Shown one piece after another: positions 6,057-63,593 of a stretch of DNA of 64,000 nucleotides. The stretch covers positions 558,001-622,000 of the forward strand of contig JAMYGW020000003.1 in NCBI GenBank assembly GCA_025617375.2. Reading direction: 5' to 3'. Position 1 is the first letter of the stretch. Each line of letters starts with the position of its first letter. The notes below the pieces were generated by a model. The model saw only the letters and a program-made list of their open reading frames with translations. It was not told where the DNA came from and ran no database searches. Both the position numbers and the translations under genes were made by a program. The stretch comes from Acarospora socialis. Taxonomy: Eukaryota > Ascomycota > Lecanoromycetes > Acarosporales > Acarosporaceae.

Positions 6057-7217
6057 TCATGAATCATCAGTCAAAACCCTCAAACAACATTTTGAACATC
6101 AACATTACCACAACCAACACATTTTCAAAAAATCTGAAGCAGCAGTTTTCTTCACCTTGATCTCTTCTAAAATTCATACTATTACTGCTTTTTGATATCT
6201 TTATTGCTCACAAAGTTGTTGAACTGTTTAGTTGTACCCCTTAGTATCTAGTTTTTGAAGTTCACAAATTTTCACTTAATTTTTCTAGCTTGCTTGACAG
6301 AATTTCTGCACACCAAGCATCACCAGATACCTCAACTAAGTCTCACTCACACCAAAACACCAAAAACACCAAAACAACCAAGAAAACACCAAAAACACCA
6401 CTTTTACGCCAACTACACAGCAATTCCAGCCTATACACACCAAGCTACATCAATTCATGCATCATACAACATACCTACATAGCTCCACCATCAAAACAAG
6501 CTATTGTATCAACAAAATTGACTACTTTTCAGCTATTTTCGCCCAAAAACCAGCATTTCAGGTCAAATTTCTAAGCATTACAGGCTGAATTACACCAAAT
6601 CGCTCAATTCCAGCAACTGCACGCAGTTTCCGCAAAAACTAGCCGCAAAATAGCCATTTCTTGACAGATTTAGCTGGAATCTGAGCATTTCTTCTGTCAA
6701 TTGATTAGCGTTTTGCATGCAGAAAGAACCTACCAGTGAAGACATACCCTACACTAGAAGCATCTCACAAAGACCTAGTGAAGAGTATAAGCAGGTAGCT
6801 ATTTTCTAGCCCTATCTGCTGGTAAAAGCTTAGACTGACAAACAATGTTGTCTGAGTAGTTGAGATATAAATATGAGACTTCACATGAAAATCTTGCCCT
6901 AAACACATCTGCCCCAAGACCTAGTGGTTGAGTGACTTATAGTATAGTCTTGCTTATAGTAGAGCTGGTAAAAGTCTATTGTAGAGTCTATCTACTCTAG
7001 GTGAATTGAGATATTAAGCAACATCTGAATTAGACAATTGAGTACAGTCTATTCTAGATGAAATAAGAATTCAAAGCTTCTATAATCTAGAACCTCAGGA
7101 AAATCTAGTTTTTATCTTTCAAAACTAGATAATTACTGCTAGACATAGATCTTCTGAACCTGAATTTGAATAGGATTTTGGATTTGAACAGAATGAACTT
7201 CAAAAACACCTCATATC

Positions 7218-8807: not shown

Positions 8808-11800
8808 ATAACACAACAAATTCATCACAAATCACCATTCTACAACACAACTGCGCAAGATCTATGAATGTCATGTACTCATGTCTGAATTCAGCTACAA
8901 AAACTGCAGACATAGTTCTTCTTCAAGAATCATGGGTTGCAAGAGACAACAAAACCACTATTTCACATTCATCTTTTACTAGTTTGATACCCACATCTAA
9001 TCTAGATATTAGACCTAGAACTATGGCATTTGTGTCTAAAACTAAACAAGATTTAGTGTGTATATCAAGACCTGACTTGTCAAAAGACTCAGATTTGCAA
9101 ATACTCAGTATTTCAGCAAATGGAATTTCTAGTACACTGTTACTTAATATATACAATGAAAAGTCACAGCAAATCAACAATGATCAATGAACTATAGACA
9201 GATGTTTAACAGCAATTCAACTACCACAAAGAGCTATTATCTGTGGAAATTTTAATGCACATCATGCATGGTGAAATTCATCAATAGAAAACTCTATAAG
9301 AGCTACTTCTTTGATAAACTGGCTGAAAATTCACAACTGTGAGCTATTAAATACACCAGACATAAACACCTATACACATCACTCAGGAAATGCCACATCA
9401 GTGATTGATTTGACTTTTGCAACACTCTTACTTTGCAATTTCATCAGAAATTGGCAAGTAAATCAAGACATGGAGTCTGAATCAGACCATGAAGTTATTC
9501 AGTTTCAAATAACTGCAAATGAGTCTGAATGAATTGAAAGTCCACTGAGTGCATCATACAATATAGACAAAGCAGACTGGGTTAAATTTGCAGAAACTCT
9601 GCAAATAAACTCAGTACAAACCAGTGTTCAAATTCAAAGCTTAATGCAACATCTATCAGATCAAAATCTAGAAGAAATGACTATTTCTCTCAGAAATCTG
9701 ATAGCAAATGCAGCAGATCAGCATATACCAAAGAGAAAACCTTGTTCAAAAGTCAAAGTATGATGATCTGAATCATTATCAGTACTTAAAACTGAAATGA
9801 GTGGTTTTAGAAGATACTGAAAACATCACAAATCACAAGAAAACTGAAATCAATTCAGAAATGCAAGAAATAGATACTTTCACGCAATTCAGAAAGCCAA
9901 ACATACCTCATGGACTACTTTTCTGCAAGGTGCAGCTGGAAAAGATGTTTTTACAGCATATCATTACACTAAACCACGAAAAATAGAGAAAACACCTCCT
10001 ATAAAGCATGAAAACAAAGTGGGACTCACATTTAAAGACAAATGTGACTTGTTTCTTGAAGCTATGTTTCCAAAACCACCTCAAACAAGTCCAGTTGAGC
10101 TAGAATGTGATAATAGTCTCACAAAACCATGGTTTTCAGTCATTTCTAAGGAAATAAAACAAGCTATTATGACTTCATCAACAAAGAAAGCACCTGGGCC
10201 AGATGGATTGTCCTTTTTAATAATTCAACATGCATATCAAGCTATATCTGAGTTATTTCACACTGTTTATTCAGTTTTAATAAATCAAGGCTATCATCCA
10301 GTATGCTGGCGTCAAGGAACTGGTGCAATTCTAAGAAAAGAAGACAAAGCAGACTATTCAATACCCAAAGCATATAGGCCAATCACTCTACTAAATTGCT
10401 TGGGCAAATATCTGAAAAGATAATGACAACAAGACTTTCCTATTGGGCTGAAACCACAGACTTGCTATATCATGAGCAAATGGGTGGTAGAAAGCAAAGA
10501 TCAGTGGTGGATGCAGCTATGTGTTTAACACATGACATTCAACAAGCAATCAACAACAACAAAGTCTTGACAGCTTTATTCTTGGATGTTAAGGGTGCAT
10601 TTAACTATGTGTCTTTAAATCAACTGCTAAAAGTCATGAAAAGACTACATTTACCACAAACTGTACTAAAATGGGTGCAATGCTTTCTTACAAATAGAAC
10701 AATTGCTCTAGCTTTTGATGGTGAAAAAAATCACTCACAAAGTGTCAATTCTGAAATTCCACAAGGATCACCTATATCATCAATGCTATTTTTGATCTAT
10801 ATGCGATTTCTATTCACAAAAATCAACAATAAACATACTCAACTAAAGCTACCAAGCTATATTGATGATGTGACTATTATTGTAGAAGGAAAAACAGCTG
10901 CAGACAACAGCAAAACACTAGAATCAGTCACAAAAACTGCATTTCAATGGGCTGAAGAAAATGCAGTTATATTTGATGACAGCAAATCAGAACTCATTCA
11001 TTTTCAGAAAGAAAATCAAGCTATATCAACAGTAAAACTACCAAATAACACTGTTATACATCCTTCTAAAGTTGTATGCTGGCTAGGTGTTTGGTTTGAC
11101 ACTAAAATGTCTTTTAAGACACATGTGCAAAAGAAAATAGTCTCTGCAACTAGAACCTTGCACTTGCTACATAGACTGATGAATTCTGAATGGGGTTTAT
11201 CAACATCAGCTGAAAAACAGCTGTACACAGTCTGCATCACATCTATAAGTGACTATGGAAGCCCAGTATAGTGGAAACAACAAAAGAATTTTGAAAAGCT
11301 GTTTCAAAAACTTCAAAATTCAGCAACTAGAAAAATTCTAGGTGCATTTAGGTCTTCACCATCAGCTGCTATGGAGCTAGAATCAGCTATATTACCACTC
11401 AGATTTAGACTTGATCAAAAAACAGAGCTATATGCTTTAAGAATAGCTACTTTGTCAGAAAATCATCCAATTAAACAAAGAACTCCATACACCTACCCAC
11501 CAGGACTTGGAACTGGATGTGATATTGATGAAAATCATTATCTTGACTGGAATCAACATCCAAACTCTCTCATTAAGAAGAAACACCCAACTCAGTTGAT
11601 TAAAGTGCTATATAGCATTTGCAAATATCTACCAGAAACACTAAATTTGGAGGTTTCAACTCAAAATGAGTCACACTGTGCACCATGAAGTGTTTCACCC
11701 ACAATAGACATTCAAATCAGCAAATCTGACAAGAAACTAGCTACTTTGAAACATCTAAAGAGACTAGAAACACTTCTCTCTAAGGAAACCAAGTTTAAAA

Positions 11801-12678
11801 ATGCTGTTTTGTACACAGATGAGTCAAAACTAGATGAAAATCTAGGTGCAGGTCTTTGCTACATGTATAAAGATATTATACATCAACAATCTTGAAATCT
11901 AGAAACCACCATGGAAGTCTATGATGCTGAATTGTTTGGAATTTCACAGTCTTTGAAGTTAAGCCTCAAAGAAATCATGAAATATCAAAGAATCAAAGAC
12001 ATATGGATCTTTTCAGACAATCAAGCAGCTATACAAAGAATTCAAATCACAAATCAAGGATCTGGACAGCATCTAGCTATTAAATGTCAAGAAACTCTTC
12101 AAAAACTCATAGATTATGAAGTTACACCTCATATTCATTGGGTCCCTGGACATGAGAACATTAAAGGCAATGAAATAGCAGATAAAGCTGCAAAATCAGG
12201 TGCAAAGCAGTCAATTTCATCAGATATTGATAGATTTACATCTATTAGCTATATTAAACACAAAATCAAGGTCAAAGCACTGGAAAACTGGACCACCCAC
12301 TGGAAAAAGACAACTCAAGGAAGATATTATGCTCAGTTTGATCAAACACCTAGTTTTCACATCAAAGAAGATCTGAAAAGTGCAGACAGACTTTCATTTG
12401 CTACTTTTACACAAATGAAACTAGATCATGACTATTTCAAAGCATATCTGCATAGATTATCAGACTATAACAGCAAGAAATGCAATGGGACATGCAACAA
12501 AGATCAAACCCCAGAGCATTTGTTGACAGCCTGTCAATATAACAAAAAGAAGCAAACTGAGCTGAAAAATCAGCTCAGAAACATCAATTTGCCATATACA
12601 GCAAAGATGCTGTTTACTATCAAGGAAGGAATCAAAGCTACTTTTGCTGTTTTTGAAGAAAACCAAAGTAGCTACTAG
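8804..12678 (+). pseudogene. LINE copy B ORF2: endonuclease-RT-RNase H polyprotein
   Basis: ATG at 8804 overlaps the ORF1 stop as ATGA. The APE-like endonuclease shows LLQESWV, then GNFNAHH at ~9250 (the family consensus has Asp where Asn is read, GAT>AAT) and SDHEV. The reverse transcriptase spans ~10019-11690 with KAPGPDG, LDVKGAF, GSPIS and YIDDV. RNase H spans ~11810-12215 with LYTDES (Gly codon altered), ELFGI, SDNQAAI and HWVPGH..GNEIAD. The tail has C..C...HLLTAC. In-frame TGA codons occur at Trp positions (for example the second Trp of HAWW at ~9272). One TAG at ~11269 is Trp in copy C. The protein would mediate target-primed reverse transcription; this copy cannot make it. Confidence 0.9.
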
Positions 12679-13139
12679 AAAATGATTATTAGAAGAAGTT
12701 GAGGGTGAAGATGAGATTTAGAAAAGAAAAAAGATATTGATTGACAATCAGCATCAGGTTGACTGAACAGAAGTGATCAAAAAGCATTCAGATTGATTAT
12801 TCACATGTACAAGATTTTGAGTTTTGTTTTGTGTCTACATCTTTCACTATATGTCTATTAACTGCTATAGCTTTTATAGCTGCATGCATAGAATGAAGAA
12901 TAAATAAATAAATAAATAAACAGTGTGTTCAACATACTTTCAAAAAAAACAACAACATATACTTCTGCAGCTTCTTGCAGACTTTTTATGACTGAGATTT
13001 AAAATTGAAAACTTTTGTCATGATGTCAAATCTTTATTAAATAGTTCTGAATGATTTTTCAACATAGTTGTTAAAAGAAAAGTTTTTTTCATTAAGAAAT
13101 CAGTTGATCTCTGATAGCAACACATTTCATGAAGAGTAA

Positions 13140-13840
13140 CAGTTATAAAGTAAAATTGAGTGTTAAAATTGAGCATTAGAATTGAGCATTAAAATTGAAC
13201 AATAAAATTAAGCAATATTATGAACATCATCATCAAGCATTAAAACAAAGTATCAAGACAGAGCATCAAAACTAAGCACTGTCATGAAGTACTGTCATAA
13301 AGTATTAAAATAAAGCATCAAAACTGAGCATTAAAACTGAGCATTAAAACTGAGTATTGTCAGAAAGCATCATCACAAAACATTAAAACTGAGCATCAAA
13401 ATTGAGCATCATCACAAAGCACTGTCATGAAGCATCAAAATGAAGCATTAAAACTGAGTGATAAAATTGAGCAATAAAATTGATCAATATTATAAGCATC
13501 AAAACAAAGCACAAAATTGACATCAAAACTGAGCACTGAAACAAAGAATCAAAATAAAGTACTAAATAAAGCATCATCACAAAGCATTAAAACTGAGCAT
13601 CAAATTTGAACATCAAATCTGAGCATTGAAACTGAGCAACAAAATGAAGCATCATTACAAAGCACTAAAATAAAGCATCAAAACTGAGCATCAAAATTGA
13701 GCAATAAAATAAAGCATCAAAATTGAGTATCAGAACAAAGCATCAAAATAAAGCACTGAAATGAAGTTTTAAATTGAAGCATTAAGATGAGACATCAAAA
13801 CTGAACAATAAAATTGAACAATAAAATTATACTTACTGTT
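13140..13840 (+). repeat. Degenerate tandem array of a ~13-bp unit (GAGCATNAAAACT)
   Basis: About 50 imperfect units of GAGCATCAAAACT / GAGCATTAAAATT, with AAAGCATCAAAAT and GAGCAATAAAATT variants, run across ~700 bp. Differences are mostly C/T and G/A. The array lies directly after LINE copy B and ends near 13840. The complementary unit occurs at 14905-15452 and 24829-25085. Confidence 0.85.
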
Positions 13841-14904: not shown

Positions 14905-15452
14905 TAATACTCAGTTCTTATCTTTACTTTTATTGCTCAGTCTTTAAACTCAGTTTCTACACTCAGTCTCTATATTCAGTCTCTACACTCAGTATCTATA
15001 TTCAGTAAATTTATTATTTTACTTTGATGCTTTGTTTCAGTACTCAGTTTCAGTATTTTGCTTTGATGCTTCATTTTAATGCTTCATTTTGATGTTTTAT
15101 TTTAATGTTTGATTTTGATGCTCAGTTTTGATACTTTAATTTAATACTTTATTTTAATGCTTCATTTTGATGCTTCATTCTGATGCTTAATTTCAGTGTT
15201 TTGTTTTGATGCTCAATTTATCACTCATTTTTATCACTCAGTTTTGATGTTTCATCTTGATGCTCAGTTTTAATGTTTTATTTTAATACTCAATTTTGAT
15301 GCTTCATTCTGATACTTAGTTTTGATGCTTTGTTTTAGTGCTCAATATATTGCTCACTTTTATCACTTTGTTTTGATATTTTGTCTCAATGCTTCATTTT
15401 AATATCTTATTTCAGTACTTAATTATAATGCTTCATTCTGATGCTTCATTCT
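14905..15452 (-). repeat. 13-bp-unit array in reverse orientation, left half
   Basis: Units read AGTTTTGATGCTC / CATTTTAATGCTT, the complement of the array at 13140-13840. The array is cut at 15452 by the Copia LTR (target duplication ATTCT at 15448-15452) and resumes at 24829. Confidence 0.85.
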
Positions 15453-15692
15453 TGTTGAGAAGTATGATGTTTTAACTGCTTTTATTGTTTTAGTTAGCTT
15501 TAATGTCAGAGATTGATCTGCATAGTGAATAAAGTTGATTGTAGTTAACTTCATTTAATAATCTTTATAATTTATGTGAACTATAATCAAGATAATTGAC
15601 ACACATTAACTGCAGTCAATCTCAACAGTGTATGTTTCACTAAATAGACAGTATAGCACAAGTATTCTTTAAATCTTTCATTATATTTCATA

Positions 15693-15707
15693 AATTATGA
15701 GCTCAGA
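15693..15707 (+). promoter_or_regulatory. Primer-binding site of the Copia element
   Basis: AATTATGAGCTCAGA follows the 5' LTR directly. TTATGAGC(C/T)CAG is complementary to the anticodon-stem region of initiator tRNA-Met, which Copia elements use as a half-tRNA primer. One C>T change is assumed. The same word occurs at 56404 after another LTR-like end. Confidence 0.65.
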
Positions 15708-16630: not shown

Positions 16631-16679
16631 ATTGATAGCATCAACTGATTAAAGAATTCAGTCTAAATCTTTATGTCTA

Positions 16680-19170
16680 GATGTCAGTGAGCTCAGAATA
16701 TTGCATTAAATGTTCTTCACATTAGTTCATGAAATCAAACAAAAATACAAAACATTTGCTTCATCAAATCAGTCTGTTTTTAATGTTAAAAACAGTCTCT
16801 TTTCAGCATGATCAACATCAATCTAATCAATATACATCACAAAAACAAGACAGCAATCATACAGTTCAATAACTTAAGTTCTGAATCTCATCATTGCTTT
16901 GTTTAAGACTTTATAAACACTCTTGTCAGTCAAATAAAGAAAACTCATCTAACTGATGTCAAAAAGCAGCAGAATAATCTTATTTTAACAGATATTGATG
17001 AAATATACAATACTATTAAAAAGTCTAACACAAATCTGAATGTCAAATTAGACACTTGATTCAACAAGATTCTCAAGACATTACATTGTCAATTCACATC
17101 ACAACAGTCTTAATCACATCATTCTGACAGTTCATCAATCTCATTAAAGATCACAGTTAGATGATCTTCAACAGAGTGATTAGTGAAGAAAGAACTACAG
17201 AATAATAATGACTATGATCTAGAGAGTTTGAGCAAGAATTGTGTTAAGAAATGAAAAGAAAAAGAGCATAAAATTATCACAGTTCTCTGTGATGATGATG
17301 AGTCTCATTCAATAATGTTTTGAGTGAACAAAATAGACTTCTTTGACTCACATCTTGATGAGATTATTGATGAAAGCAAGATCAATATTGTTCAAGTTAA
17401 CTGTGATGTCTATTACTATGATGTTCATTTCTTTGTTGATCAAGTCAGAACTATAATCAATGTCAAAGACAGTTATTATGTATAAATTGATCTGTATTTG
17501 TGTCTCTGCAATGTTATTCAAGAATGATATGTAGTTAAACTTGACAACATTTAACAAGATGACATGCAAAATGATCACAACATCATCAACTGAGTAAATG
17601 TTTTAATAACTCAATTCAAGCAATCAAAGCAAGTCATACTCAATATTTTTCTTACTTTACAATACAGCATCAAGAACATTCACAAACACAGCTCTGCATT
17701 ATATATTTAGACTGTTGTTCAATACAGAAGAAATGCTGATCTTTTTATGTTAAATCAGTTATTCATAATCTGAAACAAGCTTAATGTTAATCTTTAACAC
17801 AATATTTCTCATTCTACAATTCACATCATCATTGTAATCTTTATTCAGCAATTGAAAGATTACAAGAACATGTGAAAATGACTGTTTTCTTGTTCACTGT
17901 TGTCATGAGACTTTTGATGATATGAATCTTCAAATCATGATTACTTTACAAATTCATCATCTTATGACAATGACTCATATCTAGATCACAGTGAAAACAA
18001 TCATCAAAATAATATGTCAAATCACTGTTATTCATCTCATTCTTACAAAAATTGTGACTATAATTCACATCAAAATGATACATCAAATTAAGAAAATCAC
18101 TCATCACAGCAACAACTCTTTCATTCTTAATTTGTCAATCAGTCATCTCATGAACACAAATCTCAAGAACAGCAATCTCAGTCAGTTTATCATGTGAATT
18201 TTGACAACAACATTGATGCACACTCAATGACTTACTATGTGAATCAACAAAATGACAAGTACATCAATCAAAACTCTAATCAAAACAAAACAGAGATGCA
18301 TAACTACACAAATTGAACAATTACACAGCAAACTTATTCATGTCTGACATATGAAAAGATCTTTTCTTCAGTCATACATCTCAATTATTATGTCACTGAT
18401 GTTTACTACAACTATTTTGTCTTGTCATATCACACTGACATCATCATTTCTATCAACTACATCATCATGAAGATCAGCATCAGCAGTCTTATCATCAAAT
18501 TTCAGTCTATCTGTCTAGACTCTGACATCATTTACATGCTTATTGATCACAGTTTAGCTGCTGAAAATCTTTCACAATTTAGTGAAACAATCTTACAAAT
18601 CAAGAATATCATCAGCAACTTTATCTTCAACAAGCATGTCAATCTATGTCTCTACATTCATGATGATGATGATAAAGATAAAGAAAAGATCTTTGTCAAT
18701 TGCAAGACTTATATTGTGAATGATCTTGACACAGACATTCTTATTAATGTGAATGTTATGCAGACAAAAGACATGATTTTGAACTGTGAAAATGACAAGT
18801 TAATTATGAATAGTCATCATGAATTTATGACTTTCTTTATTAGATTCTCAAAGACAAGTGACACAAAACAAGCTGTCATCTTTTTCTATGAAATGACAGT
18901 ACATATGACTATGTTAAGTTTTCACAAAAAAACATTCAAAAAGATCTCAAAAAACATGCAAAATTCAGTGATTCTGAACATTAAATTAAACACTAAAATG
19001 ATTGTTAAATCAATGACAAAATCACTTTCTTATGCATGTCACACATGTCATGCATCTTACTCATCATCAAATAGTCTTCACAGACATCTTCAAATGTCTG
19101 GTCACATCTTATTTTGTCATTCTCATTCTTGTCATTGTTGTTCATGTTGTCAACTTGATAAATTATGAAG
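16680..19170 (+). pseudogene. Gypsy 1 gag and protease region, degenerate
   Basis: The plus strand carries a series of open segments with stops. A gag-like part runs to ~17.7 kb, then a His/Asn/Ser-rich linker (17.9-18.35 kb), then an open block 18422-19168. That block ends in the C2H2-like finger YACHTCHASYSSSNSLHRHL, a motif seen in this position in Gypsy 2 too and in other fungal chromodomain Gypsy polyproteins. CG, CC and GG are nearly absent throughout. Confidence 0.65.
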
Positions 19171-19392
19171 AAAAAACATTGATGAAGAAATCATAATGAA
19201 AAAAATTATGTAAGAGGTTTAGATGCAGAATTTAGCAAAAAACCTTATTGTTGTCTTGCTTCATACTAGTATGACTAGCATACACAATGAGAGCATAATC
19301 TTTTCTGTTTTTTGTGAGTAGTTGTTATGAATTTGTCATAAAGCTCAGTGAGATTAAAACTCTGCAATAAAATAAGACTCTGTGAAAGTATC

Positions 19393-19509
19393 TGTTACTA
19401 GATTTCATTAGATGCAATAGAGTAAAACATCACTTTCTAGATAGTTTTTCTAAACAATTAACACATTTATCATAGACTTAGAAATCAATCATATAAATTG
19501 ATTTTAACA
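19393..19509 (+). repeat. Second copy of the Gypsy 1 LTR-like repeat
   Basis: 117 bp with TGTTAC...TTTTAACA ends, nearly identical to 16513-16630. It lies where the N-terminal third of reverse transcriptase should be: sequence before it ends in the finger region, and sequence after it resumes in the middle of RT. It could be a solo LTR, the scar of a deletion, or a rearrangement junction. Confidence 0.7.
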
Positions 19510-19519
19510 GATTGTGTCT

Positions 19520-22270
19520 TCTTTTTCTATCAATGACTTGTCAATTCAGTAGATTGATCAAAGTTCACAGTGATTTTGCACTGTGATCAAGAGCACTTTA
19601 ATGTTGCTGTTATAAACTATTGAAACTCATCTCTCTACATACAATGACAAATGAATAGAATACTCTGTGTTTTTTGTGATTTTGTATGTGACTATGTTAA
19701 TGATATTGTTGTGTTTTCAAAGATGCTGAATGAGTATGTCAGTCATTTACATCAGATTTTTCAGTTATTTCAGAAACTGAGCATTAGTCTTGAATTTAAG
19801 AAGTTCTTTCTAGATTATTCTATTGTCACACTCTTAAATCAATGAGTAGATGCTTTAGAACTTATGACTATCTTTGAGAAAATTCAGACAATAGTGAATC
19901 TTCAGTTTTTAATGATGTTTAAGACTCTTAAAACTTATCTCAGTCTTACTGACTGATTATAATTCTATATATTCTATTATGTTCAAATCACAGATTCTCT
20001 TTAGACAAGAAAAACTGCTTTGATGAAGATTTTGTCAGCAAAGAAAAATGCACAAAAACAGTATATGAGTCATGTATCAGTGAACAAACTCAGTTTTGAG
20101 AAACTGCACATGTTTAAAACTCTACAAGATCTTTTCACAATGTCTATCTTTCTGATTCACTTTGACTCAGAGTGTTATCTATACATTGATGTGAATGTGT
20201 TCAAAGCAATATGATTTTGAAATCATCATATATTAAATGAAAAGTAATCTGAATTCAGTGTTCACTGATGCAAAGATTACAGAATTTTCACATCATAAGA
20301 TTCAATCAATTCTGTTTTTCAGCAAACTGCTAATACTGACTGAATGAAACTACTGATTTATTAAAATGAAAATAGCTGATCTGATGTGAATAGTATGAAA
20401 GATAAAACATCTTATTGAATTGATTTCATTAAAACTAACAATTATAATCTTTACTGATCATTTTATCACTATCTTTATAGCACAACAGATTCATCTTATC
20501 ACAACTATCTTGATGAATAAGCTGAACTTACAACTCATATAAACATCACAGTATCTCAGTTAATTCAATTTAAATGTACAGCATCACTCAAAGAAGATTC
20601 ATCTGATTTCAGATGCATTATTGAGATTATTAAATGATATGAATGTTAAAACAGAGAATAAGATTGACATTCTTGATGATTTAATTATAGAATTGTATCA
20701 TGTCACACTGATAGAATTGACAGACAATTTCAAACAATGACTAAAAAATGCATACAAAAACAATTTGCAATTTGCAATGAATACTGAATATAATCAAATC
20801 AATAAATCTATCTTGTCAAGATGTCTTGAACACAACTTATAACAAAAATATCACAAACAAATCAGTTAGATTACACTTCACTTATTGAAATGACCTGATC
20901 TACTACATAAACAACATCAATGATCACAAGCATCTATGCATATCAGTCTGTTTTAAGAAGAAGATATTTGAACTGACACATGACAGACAATATCATGATG
21001 ATTTTCACTGCACATATGACTGTATATTAATCTTTCTATTTATGCAACAATTATTCAAAAAACTAAAAATCTATATTGTTCATTGTTCTGAGTGTCAGTT
21101 AAATCAGATGAGATGTTATGCACTTTATAAATTACTCAACTCAATATCAACATCATCAATTTCATTTCATACAATTATCATGAATTTTATTCTCACCTTA
21201 TCACCAATCAATTCAGATCAATTCAATAACATTTTTACAGTCACAGATAAGTTTACAAAGTGAATGTTACTTCTGCTCAACAAATCTATCTATATTGTTA
21301 TGAATTAAGTGAATATCTTGCTTTCAGAACTTATCAGTCATAATTAAGACATATCTCAGTAGATCATTAGTGATCACAATAAAAAGTTTCTTTCATCATT
21401 TTAACATATCATTTTTGAGTACTTAGTCACAAAACTACTCACATTTACAGCATATCACTCTCAAACTGATGATCAATTCAAACAGACTAATCAGATAGTT
21501 GAAATTGTCTTATAATACTTCATCACTGCAAGATCTGACAAAGTCTTCATCACAGTACTATCATATCTGCAAGACTATCTTAATAACTTTAAAATCTTCA
21601 TCAACTATGTCTCAAACAAGCTGACTTATGACTTCTGCATCAACAACACTCTTAATGCACTATTATTGACAAATTTATTATCTAAAAACTACACTTGTCT
21701 TCATCAGATGTATTGTGAAGACTCTGAACATATTATTATATTTGTGAATATAACAACAAAGTACTACTATGATGTGAAGCACACATTACTTTCACTTGAA
21801 TTGATGATCTATCTGTGCTTATTTCACAGATACATCATATTAGACTTGACAAATTGCAAGTTATTAAATCAGCATATGAACTCATTTTGAATTCTAAAGT
21901 GTGTTGATTAACTTGTATATTGTCTTGAATTATCATCTATAATGCAAATATATTCAATGATATTAATCACTCAGCTGAAGTCAGTGTCTCTGTTAGAACA
22001 CAACTCATATAATTGTCAGTTAAATGTGAACTCTCTGCTGATTGAAAATGAGAATATTACTGATGATGTTGAAACAGCATTTTTTTATGAAATTGAGCAT
22101 CTATTTAATAAATGAACTCAATGAATCTGCAGTAAATCTGTTATTGAGTATCTCATTAAGTGAAAGAAATATAATCATAGTTACAATGTATGATATGACA
22201 TGAAAGATCTGACTGATATCAAGAATCTGATGAAGAACTACAAGCAGAACAATACAATGAGTTGAGTTAT
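19520..22270 (+). pseudogene. Gypsy 1 RT (partial), RNase H, integrase and chromodomain
   Basis: RT is recognisable from ~19530. The active-site block reads FVCDYVNDIVVFS at ~19675 (YVDD changed to YVND). A DSECYLYIDVNVFKA RNase H segment follows at ~20170. The integrase zinc region has CSECQLNQ at ~21090, then ITVTDKFTK-like text at ~21235 and further catalytic-core remnants to ~21650. A chromodomain is recognisable at ~22080-22265 (YEIEHLFNK...VIEYL...YNHSYNV..DMKDL). This order is that of a chromovirus. The frame has many stops; no 3' LTR is evident before Copia sequence resumes near 22380. Confidence 0.8.
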
Positions 22271-22389
22271 GAGTTTCTTTGTTGTTAAAGTCTATGTCAA
22301 TCTCACTGACATGCAATTTTAACAAGATCATCAGCTTTACTTAATGAGAGACAGATTGTTATGAATAGAAAGTTAACTTCATTATTTTG

Positions 22390-24561
22390 ATCTCAGTCTT
22401 TGAACATGATTCATCAGATCACTTAGCAATCTCATTGTCATCATGAACTTATAAACTAAAGTGCTAGATCTGAAAGAAATCTCTATGAATATATAGTCAG
22501 ATTTTTTCATAGATAGATTCTTAGCAACTACATACTTCATGAACACAATACAATTCTAATATCACAGATTCAAATCTGTGAGTTTAGATGATAAAAAGAT
22601 GTTGAAATTAATTGTAGTCAATCTTAATACATCTGCATCAGACATCAATGCAGTGAATAAATTGATTATGATTAACTTAAATAGATTACAGACTAATAAA
22701 TAAGACAAGATTAAGCAGTTCTAACATATTAAGATCTTCATTAACAAAACAGACAAATCAGCAGAGAACATCTTAACTAAGAAAGTCAGAACATTCTTGT
22801 GCATTGAAATTTCAAAGAGAAAGTAAAACAATGATGATGACAAGCAAAACTTGAATAAGTTCTTGTTCAAGATATCAAAAGTCATGCTAACATTAATCAT
22901 TTTCACAACAGATAAAGAAGATCACAACAACATCAGATCTAACATTTCTACATTTGTTATCTATGCTGAAGCAGTGAAAGATTCAATTTAAAAAAGAATG
23001 TAAAAGAATGTTATTCATGCAGAGTTAACAGTTTTGACAGCAAATGAAATCTAAGAAGAAGTTGTGTCATTAAAGAATGCAAACATTGTGACAAACAAAT
23101 AAATGTTTAAATTCAAGCTGAACACTGATGAATCTCTGAACAAGTTTAAGACAAGAGTTATGATGAGAAATTTTTTTCAGATGTATAACATTGATTATGA
23201 GAACATCTTCACATCTACTATTAAATTTGACACTTTTTGAGTCTTTCTAATCATTGTCACACTTAAGAATCTGAAGTATCATCAAATAAATGTCAACAAT
23301 GTTTTCACAGAATTTTTTTTTCAAGAAAACTATCTACATAATGATTTCTTCTGAAGTCAAAGTTACATTTAGTTGTGTATTGTGCATACTGCACAGTTTC
23401 TATAATTTTAAATAAGCTGTACAGAACTAACATAAGTGATGTATTAATAAGTTAAAGAAATTAAACTTTCATTAAAGTGATATGAAATCTTGTCTTCTTA
23501 TTCACAGCATTAAAAAGATCATGCTGTTTCTTTATGTAAACAATATCATTGTGATTTCAGTGAATCTGTTACATGTTCTCTGATTTAAGCAAGTTCTTAT
23601 GAAGATGTTCAAAGTTAAGAACTTGAGAAAAACACAAAAAATTCTTGACATTCAAGTTACACACAATCACAAGAGAAGAACTTTGCATCTGAATCAAACT
23701 CACTATGTAAATAAGATGCTGAAAGATCTTCATATATGATCTGATAAGCACAGAGTCACTGAGATTTTACTTAATAAATATGATATTCTTTATTCTGCTG
23801 ATTTAACTGATCAAAAAATAGATTAAAGACAGTATCAGCAAGCAATTGAAAGTCTGATGTATGCAACAATTCATATTTAACTGAACATTGTCTTTAATCT
23901 AAATCAACTAAATCAATATTTCAGTGATTCTGCAGAACATTATGAATATATATTTAAAGAACTATTACAGTATGTCAGATTGATCATCAATCTTAATATA
24001 GTGTATGAGTTTAGTGAAAGTTAATTCATACTTAAATACTCTAACTTAAACTATACATCAAACAAGCAAGATCAGAAGTTCATTTTAAAACATGTCTATA
24101 TGCTTAAAAATGAATTAGTATTATGAGCAAGTCAAAAGCAGAAATCTGTTATCACATTAATCACTGAGATCAAGTATATAATCATGTCAATATGCACAAA
24201 GACTGAAATCTGACTCACTCAGATGCTGAGAAACATGAGTATAAGTAAGCATCTTGAAGACAACTCATACTGTGTAAACATTAAAGAAGATAAAACTCAT
24301 CAGATCACTTTATTTCTTCAGTTCAAAGAAGACAATCAAGTTGTTTTGATTTTGATCAAAAATGCACATGTGTATGAGCAATTAAAACACATTGATGTTG
24401 TTTATCATTATATTCATGATCTGCAGAAGAAAAATCAAATTCAGATGAACTTTGTATTTAGTTGTAACATAATAACTGATGAATTAACTAAGTTCTTATT
24501 TAGACAGATCTTTGAGTGCTTTATTAAACAGTTGAAATTTACTGTCAATGAAAGTCAATAG
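22390..24561 (+). pseudogene. Copia RT and RNase H region, degenerate
   Basis: Read through stops, 23090-23400 gives the Copia RT start (FKLN.DESLNKFKTRVMMRNFFQ..IDYENIF). It continues HQINVNNVFTE, then LFLYVNNIIVIS at ~23527 (the YVDD site reads YVNN). The RNase H part ends in an open frame at 24223-24561 (LRNMSISKHLEDNSY ... FLFRQIFECFIKQLKF). The stop at 24559-24561 is 22 bp before the 3' LTR. The product would have been the C-terminal half of a Copia polyprotein. No integrase or gag is recognised upstream. Confidence 0.82.
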
Positions 24562-24828
24562 ATGCAGTGTCACTGAGTGAAAGTGTTGAGAAGTATGATG
24601 TTTTAGCTGCTTCTATTATTTTAGTTAGCTTTAATGTCAGAGATTGATCTGTATAGTGAACAAAGTTAACTGCAGTCAACTTCATTTAACAATTTCTACA
24701 ACTTATGTTGATCACAATCAAGATAATTGACTCATGTTGACTACAGTCAATCTTAACAATGTACATTTCACTAGATAGACAGTATAGCACAAGTATTCTT
24801 TAAATCTTTCACTAGATTCAATAATTCT

Positions 24829-25085
24829 GATGCTTTATTTTGATGTTTAATTTTAATACTTTGTTTTAATGTTTCATTCTGATGCTTTGTCTTGATGCTT
24901 TGTTTTGATGCTTGATGATGATGCTTATGATATTGCTCAATTTTATTGCTTATTTTTATCACTCAATTTTGATCTTTTGTTTTGATACTTCATTCTAATG
25001 CTCAATTTTAATCTTTTGTTTTGATGCTTTGTTCTGATGCTCATTTTATTGCTTAATAATAATGCTTATTTATAGTGCTCAAAGC
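24829..25085 (-). repeat. 13-bp-unit array in reverse orientation, right half
   Basis: Continuation of the TTTTGATGCTTTGTTTTGATGCTT-type array (14905-15452) on the far side of the Copia insertion. Confidence 0.8.
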
Positions 25086-25924
25086 TAACTTTACATTCTA
25101 AACTCTCACAATGATAAAATTCTCAGACATTAAGTTTTTACTTTTCTCTATCATACAACTTGTCTTTATTTTGTCAACAGACTCAAAAAATATCTTAAAT
25201 GTTGACTCTGATTATTGTAATCATTATTATAAGTTATTATATGATTTAAAAAAGATATTTAATGAGTATTTAAACAACTCAAAAACTATACAGACATGAA
25301 AGAAACATCAGAAACTTAAGAAGAATGAAGACTTCAGATAAATTGAACATACAAAGATAATAGAGTACAGAGTTGTGAAATGAAAGAGAGACACAATGAA
25401 AAAGTTAAAAAAATATAAAACTGTGAATTCTACTGTACAGAAACTCATGAAAGAGAAGATAAAAAAAGAAGTTTTGAAGAAGCAATACAATTGTAAAATA
25501 TTTGATAGATTTCAAGAATTATAACACTTTGTTATAATGCTTCTAACTATTTGCAGCTGTCTATTATGAAGATGAGCTTAGAGCTTGTTTAATGAAGCAA
25601 AAGAATCAAGCTTAAATTGATGAGAAAACTGAAAAGAAAAAATTATATACTGATGTTTTGACTCTGAAAGAAAAGCATGAGTTTAAAAAATCATGACAAG
25701 AGATATACTCTATATCAGAGTTTTATAGTTTCTCTTACTTTTTTTTAAAATATTGACAAAGATATTATCATCAATGAAAAGTACAGCAATATCAATCAGC
25801 AGATTGACAAATGTTTTATTGTTGTAATAAAACATTAAAAAAAATTATTGATCTTACAAAAAAGCAGAAGCTATGTAATGCTGAAAATTCTGATTTTGCA
25901 AAGACAATATATCTTTTCTATAGT
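25086..25924. other. AT-rich segment without a recognisable gene
   Basis: Contains short open frames (for example 25111-25299, plus strand, hydrophobic start) and lysine-rich translations around 25300-25500, but no domain I recognise. CG, CC and GG are nearly absent. It is most likely an eroded transposon. Confidence 0.35.
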
Positions 25925-26480
25925 ATTATTTTTATTTTTATTCTTCATTCTATGCATGCAGCTATAAAAGCTATGGCAGTTAATAGACATATAGTGAAAG
26001 ATGTAGACACAAAACAAAACTCAAAATCTTGTACATGTGAATAATCAATCTGAATGCTTTTTGATCACTTCTGTTCAGTCAACCTGATGCTGATTGTTAA
26101 TCAATATCTTTTTTCTTTTCTAAATCTCATCTTCACCCTCAACTTCTTCTAATAACCATTTTCTAGTAGCTACTTTGGTTTTTTTCAAAAACAGCAAAGT
26201 AGCTTTGATTCCTTTCTTGGTAGTAAACAGCACCTTTGCTGTATATGGCAAATTGATGTTTCTGAGCTGATTTTTCAGCTCAGTTTGCTTCTTTTTGTTA
26301 TATTGACAGGCTGTCAACAAATGCTCTGAGATTTGATCTTTGTTGCATGCATCATTGCATTTCTTGCTGTTATAGTCTGGCAGTCTATGCAAGTATGCTT
26401 TGAAATAGTCATGACCTAGTTTCATTTGTGTAAAAGTAGCAAATGAAAGTCTGTCTGCACTTTTCAGATCTTCTTTGATG
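25925..26480 (-). mobile_element. 5'-truncated LINE copy D
   Basis: The 3' end of the LINE family on the minus strand: a T-rich tail at ~25925, 3' UTR, and the ORF2 C-terminus up to IKEDLKSADRLSF. There homology stops and the (TTA)n tail of copy C begins at 26481. The two copies are head-to-tail, so one inserted at the tail of the other. Confidence 0.85.
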
Positions 26481-26717
26481 TTATTATTATTATTATTCTT
26501 CATTCTATGCATGCAGCTATAAAAGCTATGGCAGTTAATAGACATATAGTGAAAGATGTAGACACAAAACAAAACTCAAAATCTTGTACATGTGAATAAT
26601 CAATCTGAATGCTTTTTGATCACTTCTGTTCAGTCAATCTGATGCTGATTGTCAATCAATATCTTTTTTCTTTTCTAAATCTCATCTTCACCCTCAACTT
26701 CTTCTAATAACCATTTT

Positions 26718-29700
26718 CTAGTAGCTACTTTGGTTTTCTTCAAAAACAGCAAAAGTAGCTTTGATTCCTTCCTTGATAGTAAACAGCACCTTTGCTGTAT
26801 ATGGCAAATTGATGTTTCTGAGCTGATTTTTCAGCTCAGTTTGCTTCTTTTTGTTATATTGACAGGCTGTCAACAAATGCTCTGAGGTTTGATCTTTGTT
26901 GCATGTCCCATTGCATTTCTTGCTGTTATAGTCTGATAATCTATGCAGATATGCTTTGAAATAGTCATGATCTAGTTTCATTTGTGTAAAAGTAGCAAAT
27001 GAAAGTCTGTCTGCACTTTTCAGATCTTCTTTGATGTGAAAACTAGGTGTTTGATCAAACTGAGCATAATATCTTCCTTGAGTTGTCTTTTTCCAGTGGG
27101 TGGTTCAGTTTTCCAGTGCTTTGACCTTGATTTTGTGTTTGATATAGCTAATAGATGTAAATCTATCAATATCTGATGAAATTGACTGCTTTGCACCTGA
27201 TTTTGCAGCTTTATCTGCTATTTCATTGCCTTTAATGTTCTCATGTCCAGGGACCCAATGAATATGAGGTGTAACTTCATAATCTATGAGTTTTTGAAGA
27301 GTTTCTTGACATTTAATAGCTAGATGCTGTCCAGATCCTTGATTTGTGATTTGAATTCTTTGTATAGCTGCTTGATTGTCTGAAAAGATCCATATGTCTT
27401 TGATTCTTTGATATTTCATGATTTCTTTGAGGCTTAACTTCAAAGACTGTGAAATTCCAAACAATTCAGCATCATAGACTTCCATGGTGGTTTCTAGATT
27501 TCAAGATTGTTGATGTATAATATCTTTATACATGTAGCAAAGACCTGCACCTAGATTTTCATCTAGTTTTGACTCATCTGTGTACAAAACAGCATTTTTA
27601 AACTTGGTTTCCTTAGAGAGAAGTGTTTCTAGTCTCTTTAGATGTTCCAAAGTAGCTAGTTTCTTGTCAGATTTGCTGATTTGAATGTCTATTGTGGGTG
27701 AAACACTTCATGGTGCACAGTGTGACTCATTTTGAGTTGAAACCTCCAAATTTAGTGTTTCTGGTAGATATTTGCAAATGCTATATAGCACTTTAATCAA
27801 CTGAGTTGGGTGTTTCTTCTTAATGAGAGAGTTTGGATGTTGATTCCAGTCAAGATAATGATTTTCATCAATATCACATCCAGTTCCAAGTTCTGGTGGG
27901 TAGGTGTATGGAGTTCTTTGTCTAATTGGATGATTTTCTGACAAAGTAGCTATTCTTAAAGCATATAGCTCTGTTTTTTGATCAAGTCTAAATCTGAGTG
28001 GTAATATAGCTGATTCTAGCTTCATAGCAGCTGATGATGAAGACCTAAATGCACCTAGAATTTTTCTAGTTGCTGAATTTTGAAGTTTTTGAAACAGCTT
28101 TTCAAAATTCTTTTGTTGTTTCCACCATACTGGACTTCCATAGTCACTTATAGATGTGATGCAGGCTGTGTACAGTTGTTTTTCAGCTGATGTTGATAAA
28201 CCCCATTCAGAATTCATCAGTCTATGTAGCAAGTGCAAGATTCTAGTTGCAGAGGCTATTTTCTTTTGCACATGTGTCTTAAAAGACATTTTAGTGTCAA
28301 ACCAAACACCTAGCCAGCATACAACTTTAGAAGGATGTATAACAGTGTTATTTGGTAGTTTTACTGTTGATATAGCTTGATTTTCTTTCTGAAAATGAAT
28401 GAGTTCTGATTTGCTGTCATCAAATATAACTGCATTTTCTTCAGCCCATTGAAATGCAGTTTTTGTGACTGATTCTAGTGTTTTGCTGTTGTCTGCAGCT
28501 GTTTTTCCTTCCACAATAATAGCCACATCATCAATATAGCTTGGTAGCTTTAGTTGAGTGTGTTTATTGTTGATTTTTGTGAATAGAAATCGCATATAGA
28601 TCAAAAATAGCATTGGTGATATAGGTGATCCTTGTGGAATTTCAGAATTGACACTTTGTGAGTGATTTTTTTCACCATCAAAAGCTAGAGCAATTGTTCT
28701 ATTTGTAAGAAAGCATTGCACCCATTTTAGTACAGTTTGTGGTAAATGTAGTCTTTTCATGACTTTTAGCAGTTGATTTAAAGACACATAGTTAAATGCA
28801 CCCTTAACATCCAAGAATAAAGCTGTCAAGACTTTGTTGTTGTTGATTGCTTGTTGAATGTCATGTGTTAAACACATAGCTGCATTCACCACTGATCTTT
28901 GCTTTCTACCACCCATTTGCTCATGATATAGCAAGTCTGTGGTTTCAGCCCAATAGGAAAGTCTTGTTGTCATTATCTTTTCAGATATTTGCCCAAGCAA
29001 TTTAGTAGAGTGATTGGCCTATATGCTTTGGGTATTGAATAGTCTGCTTTGTCTTCTTTTCTTAGAATTGCACCAGTTCCTTGACGCCAGCATACTGGAT
29101 GATAGCCTTGATTTATTAAAACTGAATAAACAGTGTGAAATAACTCAGATATAGCTTGATATGCATGTTGAATTATTAAAAAGGACAATCCATCTGGCCC
29201 AGGTGCTTTCTTTGTTGATGAAGTCATAATAGCTTGTTTTATTTCCTTAGAAATGACTGAAAACCATGGTTTTGTGAGACTATTATCACATTCTAGCTCA
29301 ACTGGACTTGTTTGAGGTGGTTTTGGAAACATAGCTTCAAGAAACAAGTCACATTTGTCTTTAAATGTGAGTCCCACTTTGTTTTCATGCTTTATAGGAG
29401 GTGTTTTCTCTATTTTTCGTGGTTTAGTGTAATGATATGCTGTAAAAACATCTTTTCCAGCTGCACCTTGCAGAAAAGTAGTCCATGAGGTATGTTTGGC
29501 TTTCTGAATTGCGTGAAAGTATCTATTTCTTGCATTTCTGAATTGATTTCAGTTTTCTTGTGATTTGTGATGTTTTCAGTATCTTCTAAAACCACTCATT
29601 TCAGTTTTAAGTACTGATAATGATTCAGATCATCATACTTTGACTTTTGAACAAGGTTTTCTCTTTGGTATATGCTGATCTGCTGCATTTGCTATCAGAT

Positions 29701-30592
29701 TTCTGAGAGAAATAGTCATTTCTTCTAGATTTTGATCTGATAGATGTTGCATTAAGCTTTGAATTTGAACACTGGTTTGTACTGAGTTTATTTGCAGAGT
29801 TTCTGCAAATTTAACCCAGTCTGCTTTGTCTATATTGTATGATGCACTCAGTGAACTTTCAATTCATTCAGACTCATTTGCAGTTATTTGAAACTGAATA
29901 ACTTCATGGTCTGATTCAGACTCCATGTCTTGATTTACTTGTCAATTTCTGATGAAATTGCAAAGTAAGAGTGTTGCAAAAGTCAAATCAATCACTGATG
30001 TGGCATTTTCTGAGTGATGTGTATAGGTGTTTATGTCTGGTGTATTTAATAGCTCACAGTTGTGAATTTTCAGCCAGTTTATCAAAGAAGTAGCTCTTAT
30101 AGAGTTTTCTATTGATGAATTTCACCATGCATGATGTGCATTAAAATTTCCACAGATAATAGCTCTTTGTGGTAGTTGAATTGCTGTTAAACATCTGTCT
30201 ATGATTCATTGATCATTGTTGATTTGCTGTGACTTTTCATTGTATATGTTAAGTAACAGTGTACTAGAAATTCCATTTGCTGAAATACTGAGTATTTGCA
30301 AATCTGAGTCTTTTGACAAGTCAGGTCTTGATATACACACTAAATCTTGTTTAGTTTTAGACACAAATGCCATAGTTCTAGGTCTAATATCTAGATTAGA
30401 TGTGGGTATCAAACTAGTAAAAGATGAATGTGAAATAGTGGTTTTGTTGTCTCTTGCAACCCATGATTCTTGAAGAAGAACTATGTCTGCAGTTTTTGTA
30501 GCTGAATTCAGACATGAGTACATGACATTCATAGATCTTGCGCAGTTGTGTTGTAGAATGGTGATTTGTGATGAATTTGTTGTGTTATTCAT
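26718..30592 (-). pseudogene. LINE copy C ORF2
   Basis: The longest surviving piece is 29000-27708 (430 aa), covering most of the RT and the following linker. It includes LDVKGAFNYV, GSPISPMLF and YIDDV, and keeps the Trp at ~28129 that is TAG in copy B. RNase H is open from 27485 to 27105. The frame is interrupted by TGA codons at the same sites as in B around 30137, 29870, 29633 and 27707. The ATG overlaps the ORF1 TGA as ATGA (30592-30589). Confidence 0.9.
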
Positions 30593-32178
30593 GACATTTT
30601 CATAGATAGTGGATCTGCTGTTGAAGAAATAGGCTGTAGTGCTTTGAAAACACTGCATTCTGCACTATTTGCTTGATGTTTCTCACCACAATTGCTGCAT
30701 TTATAGACTATATGTGCGCAAGTGGTTTCTTTTGACTGTGTGAGACAAAGAAAACAGTCATGTTCTCTAGTATTGTGGTTTCCTGCACAGAATTGACATG
30801 TGTCTTGATTTTTACATACTTTTTGAGTATGTTCAAACTTTTAACACTTTCTGCATTGATCTGTTGGTTTGCAAGTGTTGTAGACTGCAGTTCTAACTGA
30901 TGTTTCAGCAATTATCAGTCTGTTTCTGAGTGCTTTTTGAGCTTCTTGTTCTGATTTGACTGTCAAGACAATAGATGCATGCTGTTTTTCCTGTCTGACT
31001 TCTTCTGAAGTAAGTCAGCATGGTAAAATAGCTAGTTTGATATCTTTGTTGAAGGTTTCTACTTCATCTTTGACTAGTTGCATGTCTTCTTTGCCGTTGA
31101 AAATAGCTGTGGGAATTCCATGTGCTACTATTTTGTACCACTTTTCATCCTTTTTGATTTCTATGAATTCAGATGATGAATTCCAGATTTGTTGATGTTT
31201 TAGCAAGTCTTCTGCTGTGCCTTCACTGGTTGTGAGCACTATACTAGCTTTGGATTGTGAAATGGCAACTGTGGAAACCAGCAAATTGTCTATTTTTGCT
31301 GTTTTAAGTGCGTTGTTGATTTTGTTGCGCATGTCTATGGCATTGATAGTAGTTGTGAGTGTTTTTGACTTTATAACTAGACGTCTTTCTCTGAAAGTAA
31401 TGGGTTTATCCACTACTTTTGACTTTGGTGCTTTTTTTTGAACAGTTGTCCATGAGTTTTGAGCATTTTGATCTTTGCTGCTTGCAATTGATGCATATGT
31501 TGCTGATTTCACTGTTTTTGTTGATGTTGACTGTCCAAAGCTGGTTTTGTTTGTCTGTACAAAGTTGATAGAGTTTGTTTTGTTTGTCTGAAAGACAAAT
31601 GCTGGTTTCTCTGTGGTTTCTGACTTTGTTTTAGACATTGTGTGAAGAATTTTGTCTAGTTTGATGTTGACTTCATCTTTGAAGCTGTCTAGTTGTTGTT
31701 GAACATCTAGTTTCTGATGAAATGCTTCATCTGACTGTTTGAGTGAGTCTAGATTTGCATTTTGTCTTGCTTGATTCAGTGTCTTGATGCTAGTTTCTAG
31801 TTCTTGTTGAACTATGAGGTTTGTGAATTGCTAAATAGCTTGCTTGAGGTAGTTTCTGGCTTGTTGAAGTAGTTTGTCACCATTTTGGCTTTTTGGGTGT
31901 AGGTTTGTGCAGTTTGCATGATGAGTTTCATGCTGATTTGGTTCTTCATCAGAAGAAATAGCTTCTAGCACTGGGCTGACAATGGCTCTTCTCTTTTTAG
32001 ACTTTAGAATAGTCTTTTGAGAGGGTTTCATGGTGATTTGTGATCCCAACAGGTCTGGTGAACTCATAAAGAGTTGTGGAAGTGCTGTTTTTGGTGATTT
32101 TTGTTGTTTTGTGGGTGTTTTTGGGTTTTCTATGTTGAAATCTTGCATGAAATCGCTGGAGTTCAGTGTGAAAGCCAT
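30589..32178 (-). pseudogene. LINE copy C ORF1
   Basis: MAFTLNSSDF at 32178, first open block to 31831, second block 31638-31015. The second block encodes a 207-aa sequence identical to that in copy B. Zinc knuckles follow to ~30660. One copy-specific stop is near 31832 (CAG>TAG relative to B); the knuckle TAA at ~30843 is shared. Confidence 0.87.
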
Positions 32179-33366
32179 GATATGAGGTGTTTTTGGGGTC
32201 CGTCCTGTCCAAATTCAAAATCCTATCCAAATCCAGGTCCAGAAGGTCTATGTCTAGCAGTAATTATCTAGTTTTTGAAGGTAAAAACTAGATTTTCCTG
32301 AGGTTCTAGATTATAGAAGCTTTGGATTCTTATTTCATCTAGAATAGACTGTACTCAATTGTCTAATTCAGATGTTGCTTAATATCTCAATTCACCTAGA
32401 GTAGATAGACTCTACAATAGACTTTTACCAGCTCTACTATAAGCAAAACTGTACTATAAGTCACTCAACCACTAGGTCTTGGGGCAGATGTGTTTAGGGC
32501 AAGATTTTCATGTGAAGTCTCATATTTATATCTCAACTACTCAGACAACATTGTTTGTCAGTCTGAGCTTTTACCAGCAGATAGAGCTAGAAAATAGCTA
32601 CCTGCTTATACTCTTCACTAGGTCTTTGTGAGATGCTTCTAGTGTAGGGTATGTCTTCACTGGTAGGTTCTTTCTGCATGCAAAATGCTAATCAATTGAC
32701 AGAAGAAATGCTCAGATTCCAGCTAAATCCGTCAAGAAATGGCTATTTTGCGGCTAGTTTTTGCGGAAACTGCGTGCAGTTGCTGGAATTGAGCGATTTG
32801 GTGTAATTCAGCCTGTAACGCTTAGAAATTCGACCTGAAACGCTGGTTTTTGGGCGAAAATAGCTGAAAAGTAGTCGATTTTGTTGATAAAATAGCTTGT
32901 TTTGATGGTGGAGCTATGTAGGTATGTTGTATGGTGCGTGAATTGATGTAGCTTGGTGTGTATAGGCTGGAATCGCTGTGTAGTTGGCGTAAAAGTGGTG
33001 TTTTTGGTGTTTTCTTGGTTGTTTTGGTGTTTTTGGTGTTTTGGTGTGAGTGAGGCTTAGTTGAGGTATCTGGTGATGCTTGGTGCGCAGAAATTCTGTC
33101 AAGCAAGCTAGGAAAATTAAGCGAAAATTTGCAAACTTCAAAAACTAGATACTAAGGGGTACAACTAAACAGTCCAACAACTTTGTGAGCAATAAAGATA
33201 TCAAAAAGCAGTAATAGTATGAATTTTAGAAGAGATCAAGGTGAAGAAAACTGTTGATTCAGAATTTTCAAAGACGCGTTGGTTGTGGCGATGTTGATGT
33301 CCGAAATGTTGTTTTGGTTTTTTGGGAGGAGGTATGCGAAAAATTTTGGGAGAATGGTAATTGAGG

Positions 33367-35379: not shown

Positions 35380-35551
35380 TGCTATGAGCATTGTGTGAAG
35401 TGAAAGAAGAATGGTATTTTCTAAGCTATAAAGTTAACTAGATATAGGTGAGAGATAAGTCTCATAGCAAGATGAGTCACAACATGATGTCAGTGACAGT
35501 GAAATAAGAAAGACATGCTCACTGAAAAGCATGTTGAGTAAATCTGTAACA
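35380..35551 (-). repeat. Gypsy 2 3' LTR
   Basis: 172 bp, matching 42141-42312 with scattered transitions. Flanked on the outside by AAATC. Confidence 0.9.
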
Positions 35552-35589
35552 GTCTGTCAGCAAAGTAAATAAGATGATGTCTCACTGTT

Positions 35590-42312: not shown

Positions 42313-42317
42313 AAATC

Positions 42318-45236: not shown

Positions 45237-45239
45237 GGT

Positions 45240-63591: not shown

Positions 63592-63593
63592 TA

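Follow-up and report, generated by a model that had tools for sequence, protein, structure and literature searches.

We analysed a stretch of 64,000 nucleotides from the genome of Acarospora socialis (Acarosporales, Lecanoromycetes; C3:558001-622000 of an assembly of 31.1 Mb in 38 contigs), here called the window, and found that its transposon blocks carry C>T hypermutation resembling repeat-induced point mutation (RIP) and aimed at CpG and CpC. This hypermutation is real and well supported, and its CpC/CpG preference would make it a variant of RIP: CpC and CpG were targeted about ten times more than CpA, and the CpA preference typical of RIP was not found. The changes were C>T on both strands, followed a rule set by the 3' base and left traces in retroelements and in DNA transposons, and the mutated zone was bounded at or inside the repeat edge in most cases. 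We consider it probable that the blocks arose by RIP-type, homology-dependent hypermutation of CpG and CpC through an enzyme of the RID or DIM-2 type.

A preliminary description, made from the sequence alone, had reported long stretches with no CG, CC or GG at all in the old transposon blocks, with CA, TG, CT and AG remaining common. Dinucleotides were counted, with CS (or CpS) denoting a C that has C or G as its 3' neighbour (CpC, CpG) on both strands. The block at 16650-24580 contained no CG and six CC+GG, together with 1350 CA+TG and 908 CT+AG. Base composition was controlled for with 200 mononucleotide shuffles of this block, which gave means of 159.5 CG (minimum 138) and 326.9 CC+GG (minimum 289); the observed six CC and GG were far below this expectation. 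The longest run in the window without CG, CC or GG measured 4771 bp (21204-25975), and the block at 54600-56600 held no CG and one CC+GG. The description was confirmed; 'none at all' was slightly too strong, given the six and 28 CC/GG left in the two large blocks. The features of the window were as follows.

1-2928: gene island, unmutated, GC 49%
6082-12903, forward strand: LINE-like (by inference; LINE, long interspersed nuclear element) reverse-transcriptase element with RVT_1, 98.4% identical to its inverted copy
15453-15693, forward strand: long terminal repeat (LTR)-like copy flanking the saturated block, 86% identical to 24584-24824; CG and CC absent from both
16650-24580: saturated block inside an old element that is flanked by LTRs, Gypsy-type by eye; CG 0, CC+GG 6, GC 28.5%
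24584-24824, forward strand: second LTR-like copy of the pair around the saturated block
26493-33314, reverse strand: inverted copy of the LINE-like element
34000-42300: second saturated block; CG 0, CC+GG 28, GC 30.0%
42174-43598: CS-free stretch; detected repeat homology stops at about 43606
43607-54477: gene island, unmutated, GC 47-51%, CG odds 0.65-1.00 at 44-54 kb
54478-63593: terminal inverted repeat (TIR) element with terminal repeats of about 92 bp, starting TACAGTG, Tc1/mariner-like by eye; encloses the Gypsy element at 56621-62659
56621-56936, forward strand: one LTR of 'Gypsy 3', the younger Gypsy element
62344-62659, forward strand: second LTR of 'Gypsy 3'

The Gypsy label of the block at 16650-24580 reflects open reading frame pieces likened to a Gypsy polyprotein by eye, without a family search. 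In 1-kb steps sorted into rough classes, saturated blocks had a GC content of 21-32%, CG odds of 0.00, CC odds mostly of 0.00-0.16 and CA odds of 1.3-1.9; intermediate elements had GC mostly of 32-39%, CG mostly of 0.00-0.20 and CC of about 0.4-0.9; and gene islands had GC mostly of 45-52% and CG odds of 0.65-1.00, with CC odds of 0.84-1.04 in the island at 44-54 kb. TA/AT, which was predicted not to rise, was 0.62 in the block at 16650-24580, and RIP of the CpA type was rejected on this low ratio and the CA odds of the saturated blocks. Among 20 spaced 3-kb samples of C1-C8, two were CS-free or nearly so (CG 0.00, CC 0.00-0.01), and the remaining 18 were unmutated (CG 0.64-1.04, CC 0.83-1.03).

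The direction and context of the changes were read from alignments of repeat copies. The LINE-like element and its inverted copy differed by 100 transitions and seven transversions, and C>T had occurred at 17/96 CG, 51/562 CC, 20/2317 CA and 12/1848 CT sites. The LTRs of 'Gypsy 3' had been described as differing mostly at CpG and CpC with CpA left intact, and they bore this out (CG 9/18 and CC 19/66 versus CA 4/105; CT 2/81; no transversions). Changes at CA and CT were more numerous in the older pairs of the window, among them 5322/5817 (CC 8/26, CA 8/64, CT 2/58).

Genome-wide, the Gypsy comparison comprised six of 40 scored matches and the window copy, with a young stretch (L005; GC 47%, CG 0.66, CC 1.03) as the reference. 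Across 1997 aligned bases, the saturated copy L065 differed from L005 by 364 transitions and no transversion, with C>T at 82/146 CG, 187/227 CC, 41/295 CA and 39/269 CT sites. Both strands were affected (204 C>T, 145 G>A). L065 had lost 370 of the 373 CC/CG positions (99%): 269 were mutated, 64 had gone from CG to CA via the other strand, 37 from CC to CT, and three were kept. Two further copies were saturated (L066, L067), and L068, L070 and the window copy were intermediate. An unmutated relative with 121 transversions (L069), which served as the negative control and is nevertheless counted within the pooled Gypsy rates, showed no context preference (CG 0.19, CC 0.12, CA 0.10, CT 0.17).

The LINE-like alignment had 31 rows, from which L018 and L030 (82% identical) were removed, leaving 29 copies. 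C>T was present in 563/5073 CC (11.1%), 27/288 CG (9.4%), 186/18399 CA (1.0%) and 155/14004 CT (1.1%) cells. The rate ratio of CC/CG to CA/CT was 10.5 (95% interval 8.2-13.3 from bootstrapping the columns), and at least one change was present in 136/174 CC, 8/10 CG, 93/627 CA and 74/477 CT columns. The proposal that both strands undergo C>T at a C before C or G, CpA and CpT being largely spared, was thus upheld in window pairs, in L005/L065 and in the 29 LINE-like copies, and C>T tabulated by 3' base did not fall mainly in CpA. In the LINE-like set the mutated base was the 5' C of CC (GCC 110/696, TCC 242/1653), compared with 1.3-1.9% for the second C in CCA (43/3304) and CCT (27/1421). Its rate at ACC (0.066) was about half of that at GCC (0.158) and TCC (0.146), and rates by the +2 base were 0.125 for CCA, 0.100 for CCT and 0.049 for CCC. 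A strict trinucleotide rule was discarded, as flank effects were only modest, in the pooled Gypsy copies too (TCC 0.68, CCC 0.63, GCC 0.59, ACC 0.53).

TGA arises from TGG and CGA when C>T occurs ahead of C or G, and C>T ahead of A gives rise to TAG and TAA. In-frame stops were present in 127 of the 150 RVT_1 matches listed, out of 435 candidates, and comprised 418 TGA, 60 TAA and 21 TAG; the observation that broken Trp codons read TGA and not TAG therefore extends beyond the window. DDE_1 matches, counted by eye, carried in-frame stops in 13 of 17 (53 TGA, 16 TAA, 6 TAG), and DNA transposons were therefore mutated too. Simulated CpS saturation of the young Gypsy stretch yielded GC 0.335, CG 0, CC 0, CA 1.66, CT 1.34 and TA 0.45, and the values observed in L065 were GC 0.302, CG 0, CC 0.03, CA 1.57, CT 1.28 and TA 0.56; simulated CpA saturation yielded CA 0 and TA 1.72. 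We applied the classical RIP index thresholds (TA/AT at least 0.89, substrate index at most 1.03; PMC3897900). None of the 64 1-kb windows passed both indices (TA/AT was passed by seven, the substrate index by none). The usual indices are blind here, and genomes like this one would be scored RIP-free because no 1-kb window passes both.

We then compared the limits of the mutated zones with those of the repeats. At the TIR element, repeat homology starts at 54478 (terminal segment 54478-54570), and CS is absent from just past 54556. At the opposite end (terminal repeat 63502-63593) the CS-free zone stops at 63514. The interior (54557-56302 and 62660-63513) contained no CG, CC or GG, and each terminal repeat retained nine. 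At the 43.6 kb boundary the CS-free zone extends to 43598 and repeat homology to about 43606. Six of seven other long matches to the TIR element were included in an edge test; C1:873669, which begins within the terminal repeat, was left out. Pooled over eight ends, CS per 100 bases was 12.1 across 200 bp of flank; within the repeat it was 12.5 and 11.9 in the two outermost 40-bp bins, 7.8 at 80-120 bp, 4.4 at 120-200 bp and 0.25 at 200-400 bp. At seven of the eight ends the flank was unmutated and mutation started about 80-200 bp within the repeat; the three unmutated flanks tested (L078, L080, L082) matched only themselves in the genome. At the eighth end (L081) both flank and terminus were CS-free, and thus the terminal sequence is not protected as such. 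Restriction to repeated DNA therefore held at 43.6, 54.5 and 63.5 kb and at seven of eight TIR ends, the exceptions being the L081 flank and a stretch of about 290 bp at 2.9-3.2 kb. Fading of the mutated zone within the repeat edge fits homology sensing better than methylation spreading from heterochromatin, and the spared edges may serve as a readout of homology length.

The preliminary description had suggested a search for RID- and DIM-2-type methyltransferases, and both were present. Four PF00145 matches in the genome covered three genes.

C3:855595: DIM-2-type gene; PF00145 match, BAH slightly below the cut-off, best solved chain at E 1.3e-191
C2:1420221 and 1420936 (C2:1420221-1421136): RID-type gene in two exons with an apparent GT-starting intron; motifs PPCQ, ENTSG and QARKRL
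C8:614409 (L003/L071, C8:612909-620000): third C5-methyltransferase gene, then an SNF2 domain; FSCVDFS where PCQ is usual

The DIM-2-type protein was 62% identical to a Dim-2-named protein of Pleopsidium flavum, a genus of Acarosporales (Lecanoromycetes), and closer relatives reached up to 85%. We take the C2 gene to be of the RID type on the strength of its motifs; in a pattern search all three occurred in 11 of 13 homologues, the partial P0012 having none and P0013 lacking the second. The SNF2-linked gene is presumably of the RAD8- or DNMT5-like kind. What determines which sequence RIP prefers, and whether the catalyst is RID itself, are open questions in the field. RIP with a near-inverted preference would offer a natural swap experiment on who chooses the base, by way of the target-recognition regions of RID or DIM-2.

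The LINE-like family appears to be still living. Many copies were near-identical, with stop-free frames of 873-1329 codons around the reverse-transcriptase domain, and CG odds in L006-L034 were 0.02-0.09, with CC odds of 0.48-0.84. By codon position, L009 had CC odds of 0.82 (1-2), 0.62 (2-3) and 0.30 (3-1) and CG odds of 0.15, 0.00 and 0.05, and the silent CC (3-1) was low, at 0.27-0.30, in two copies; two host genes taken as a control did not have this pattern. Since C>T at codon position 3 is silent, the lineage seems to have been purged of CpG and silent CpC, and CpC required by the protein appears to have been retained. Horizontal composition alone was rejected as the source of the low CG, as silent CC was low too. 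A living retroelement poor in CpS suggests that loss of targets is an escape route.

Taken as a process, the target would be a cytosine before G or C on either strand, with CpG at or above CpC in most comparisons and CpA and CpT about a tenth as strong. Homology would trigger mutation, presumably in the sexual cycle as in RIP; catalysis may lie with C5 methyltransferases of the RID type, the DIM-2 type or both, and the +1-base specificity of the enzyme would depart from the CpA preference of Neurospora. Several observations weigh against this account. CA and CT were changed at 14% of sites in L065 (80/564, spread along the stretch), and at 24/200 and 20/162 sites in an older piece of the LINE-like element (3684 versus 12077; CC 23/27). 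In the LTR pair of greatest age (15453/24584; four transversions) they made up all 29 transitions (CA 19/72, CT 10/62); the most divergent LINE-like member, L026, had 38 changes at CA, 34 at CT and 30 at CC. In the LINE-like alignment, 300 cells held transversions and 263 held T>C, and older subfamily differences are therefore mixed into it. Intermediate copies had lost CpG long before CpC (W3: CG 0.03, CC 0.72), which may mean two processes. No strand-run clustering was detected in 13 copies (z -1.6 to 1.8), so that single events are not visible. The edge test covered one TIR element family (eight ends from seven copies). The CS-poor zone at 2.9-3.2 kb extends about 290 bp past the detected repeat, either by leakage or by way of an undetected old repeat, and the L081 flank, which had no other match in the genome, may be either an old repeat that has diverged or unique DNA that was mutated. 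The mechanism is likely RIP-like in class; its enzyme, timing and homology trigger are what we infer.

CpG loss ahead of CpC is also what would be seen if chronic CpG loss through methylation and deamination acted on living and dead elements, with a separate acute mutator of CpC (and CpG). The CG odds of LINE-like copies (0.02-0.09) beside their CC odds (0.48-0.84) point that way, as do the DNA-transposon cores L074, L075 and L076 (CG 0.00-0.13, CC 0.81-1.08), in which a second process is perhaps responsible for the CpG-first loss. However, per-C rates at CG and CC were similar in young pairs (0.18/0.09, 0.50/0.29, 0.09/0.11), CG is exposed on both strands, and silent CC was also low in the LINE-like frame, so that selection may be largely what keeps its overall CC high; two processes seem to us rather unlikely. 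A slow decay, in which 5-methylcytosine (5mC) laid down at CpG and CpC in heterochromatin by a DIM-2-type enzyme deaminates spontaneously with no active mutator, would likewise account for CpG going first; a DIM-2-type gene is present, the L081 flank is mutated without a detected repeat, and 5mC deamination has been put forward as the source of fungal CpG signatures (PMC4352252, PMC4165359). At seven of eight ends, however, mutation faded 80-200 bp inside the repeat without spreading into the flank. The transition excess from spontaneous 5mC deamination is roughly ten-fold, and 364 transitions versus no transversion in 2 kb are far above it, which makes slow decay improbable. CC is a known context for cytidine deaminases, yet an APOBEC-like enzyme acting on single-stranded retroelement cDNA, from which a one-strand bias confined to retroelements and a 5'-base context would be expected, is highly improbable, as the 5' and not the 3' C of CC was changed, both strands were mutated (204 C>T, 145 G>A) and DNA-transposon domains had the same TGA excess. 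AT-rich blocks are hard to assemble, but compositional drift or an assembly artefact can be given next to no credence when shuffles of the same composition keep at least 138 CG and multi-copy alignments show directed C>T. The RIP-like reading extends to a more specific one, in which this lineage has a distinct class of RIP: the methyltransferase-type enzyme would read G or C at +1 in place of A, homology would be measured such that the last 80-200 bp of a repeat escape, and the living LINE-like family would have shed nearly all CpG and most silent CpC from an intact frame as an escape. We regard this version as a nearly even call, tilting slightly against it.

RIP in Neurospora crassa and Trichoderma reesei is alike in that C>T affects both strands of repeats and spares single-copy genes, and RID- and DIM-2-type genes are present here as well. 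The target orders there are CpA>CpT>CpG>CpC and CpA~CpG, CpT>CpC, respectively (PMC5496416); here, in contrast, CpG and CpC far exceed CpA and CpT, TA/AT is low and the order is near-inverted. Ten fungal genomes or strains have CpA, CpT or CpG signatures (PMC4352252, Table 2), and repeats of S. nodorum are depleted in CpA, CpC and CpG, with CpA dominant (PMC2621366). CpG depletion is shared with the RIP-like mutation of Uncinocarpus reesii, which has a CpG signature (PMC4165359), Microbotryum and Coccidioides, for which the accessible accounts do not report CpC as a target. Methylation induced premeiotically (MIP), or CpG methylation and deamination, in Ascobolus and Tuber melanosporum (PMC4165359) is similar in its CpG bias and its action on repeats; unlike it, the mutation here is saturating, free of transversions in the clearest pair and has CpC as a co-target. 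The Dim2-dependent mutator of Zymoseptoria tritici also acts in repeats and has a DIM-2-type link, but its context is CpA (CA>TA; PMC8016269), not CpG/CpC. RIP in Monacrosporium haptotylum (Orbiliomycetes) is reported to have less CpA preference than in its relative (PMC3828140); its TA/AT is elevated (1.12) and the stops to be expected are TAA/TAG, whereas here we see a low TA/AT and mostly TGA. CpA is dominant in Paecilomyces (PMC6300479), in rRNA pseudogenes of several ascomycetes (PMC5555474), in Ophiocordyceps (PMC7493409) and in Monilinia, with a mention of double changes from CpC to TpT (PMC8959702). Among lichens, Endocarpon was assessed by classical indices (PMC3897900), and Cladonia rangiformis has strong RIP with a GC peak of transposable elements near 16%, its main text, as far as available, naming neither CpG nor CpA (PMC12542154). 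The available text of a genome-wide Ascomycota survey has no CpG or CpC term (PMC7882544), and neither CpC nor CpA occurs in that of a 2026 review, which reports that in vitro RID catalysis was not detected (PMC13297926). In Rhizoctonia AG8, single-nucleotide polymorphisms at CpC lie closer together than those of any other single CpN class, seemingly uncorrected for dinucleotide frequency (PMC4014442). No CpC-preferring RIP was found in the literature searched, which was covered in part and without the main survey (Clutterbuck 2011), so that absence from print is not established.

Two kinds of tandem structure were also seen in the window. Diverged arrays of a 13-bp unit lie at 13152-13829, 14980-15465 and 24783-25095; the first is oriented opposite to the other two, which adjoin the LTR-like copies. 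The end of the LINE-like element carries a 557-bp head-to-tail duplication (25926-27037), with transitions between the units at 7/26 CC, 3/182 CA and 4/156 CT sites.

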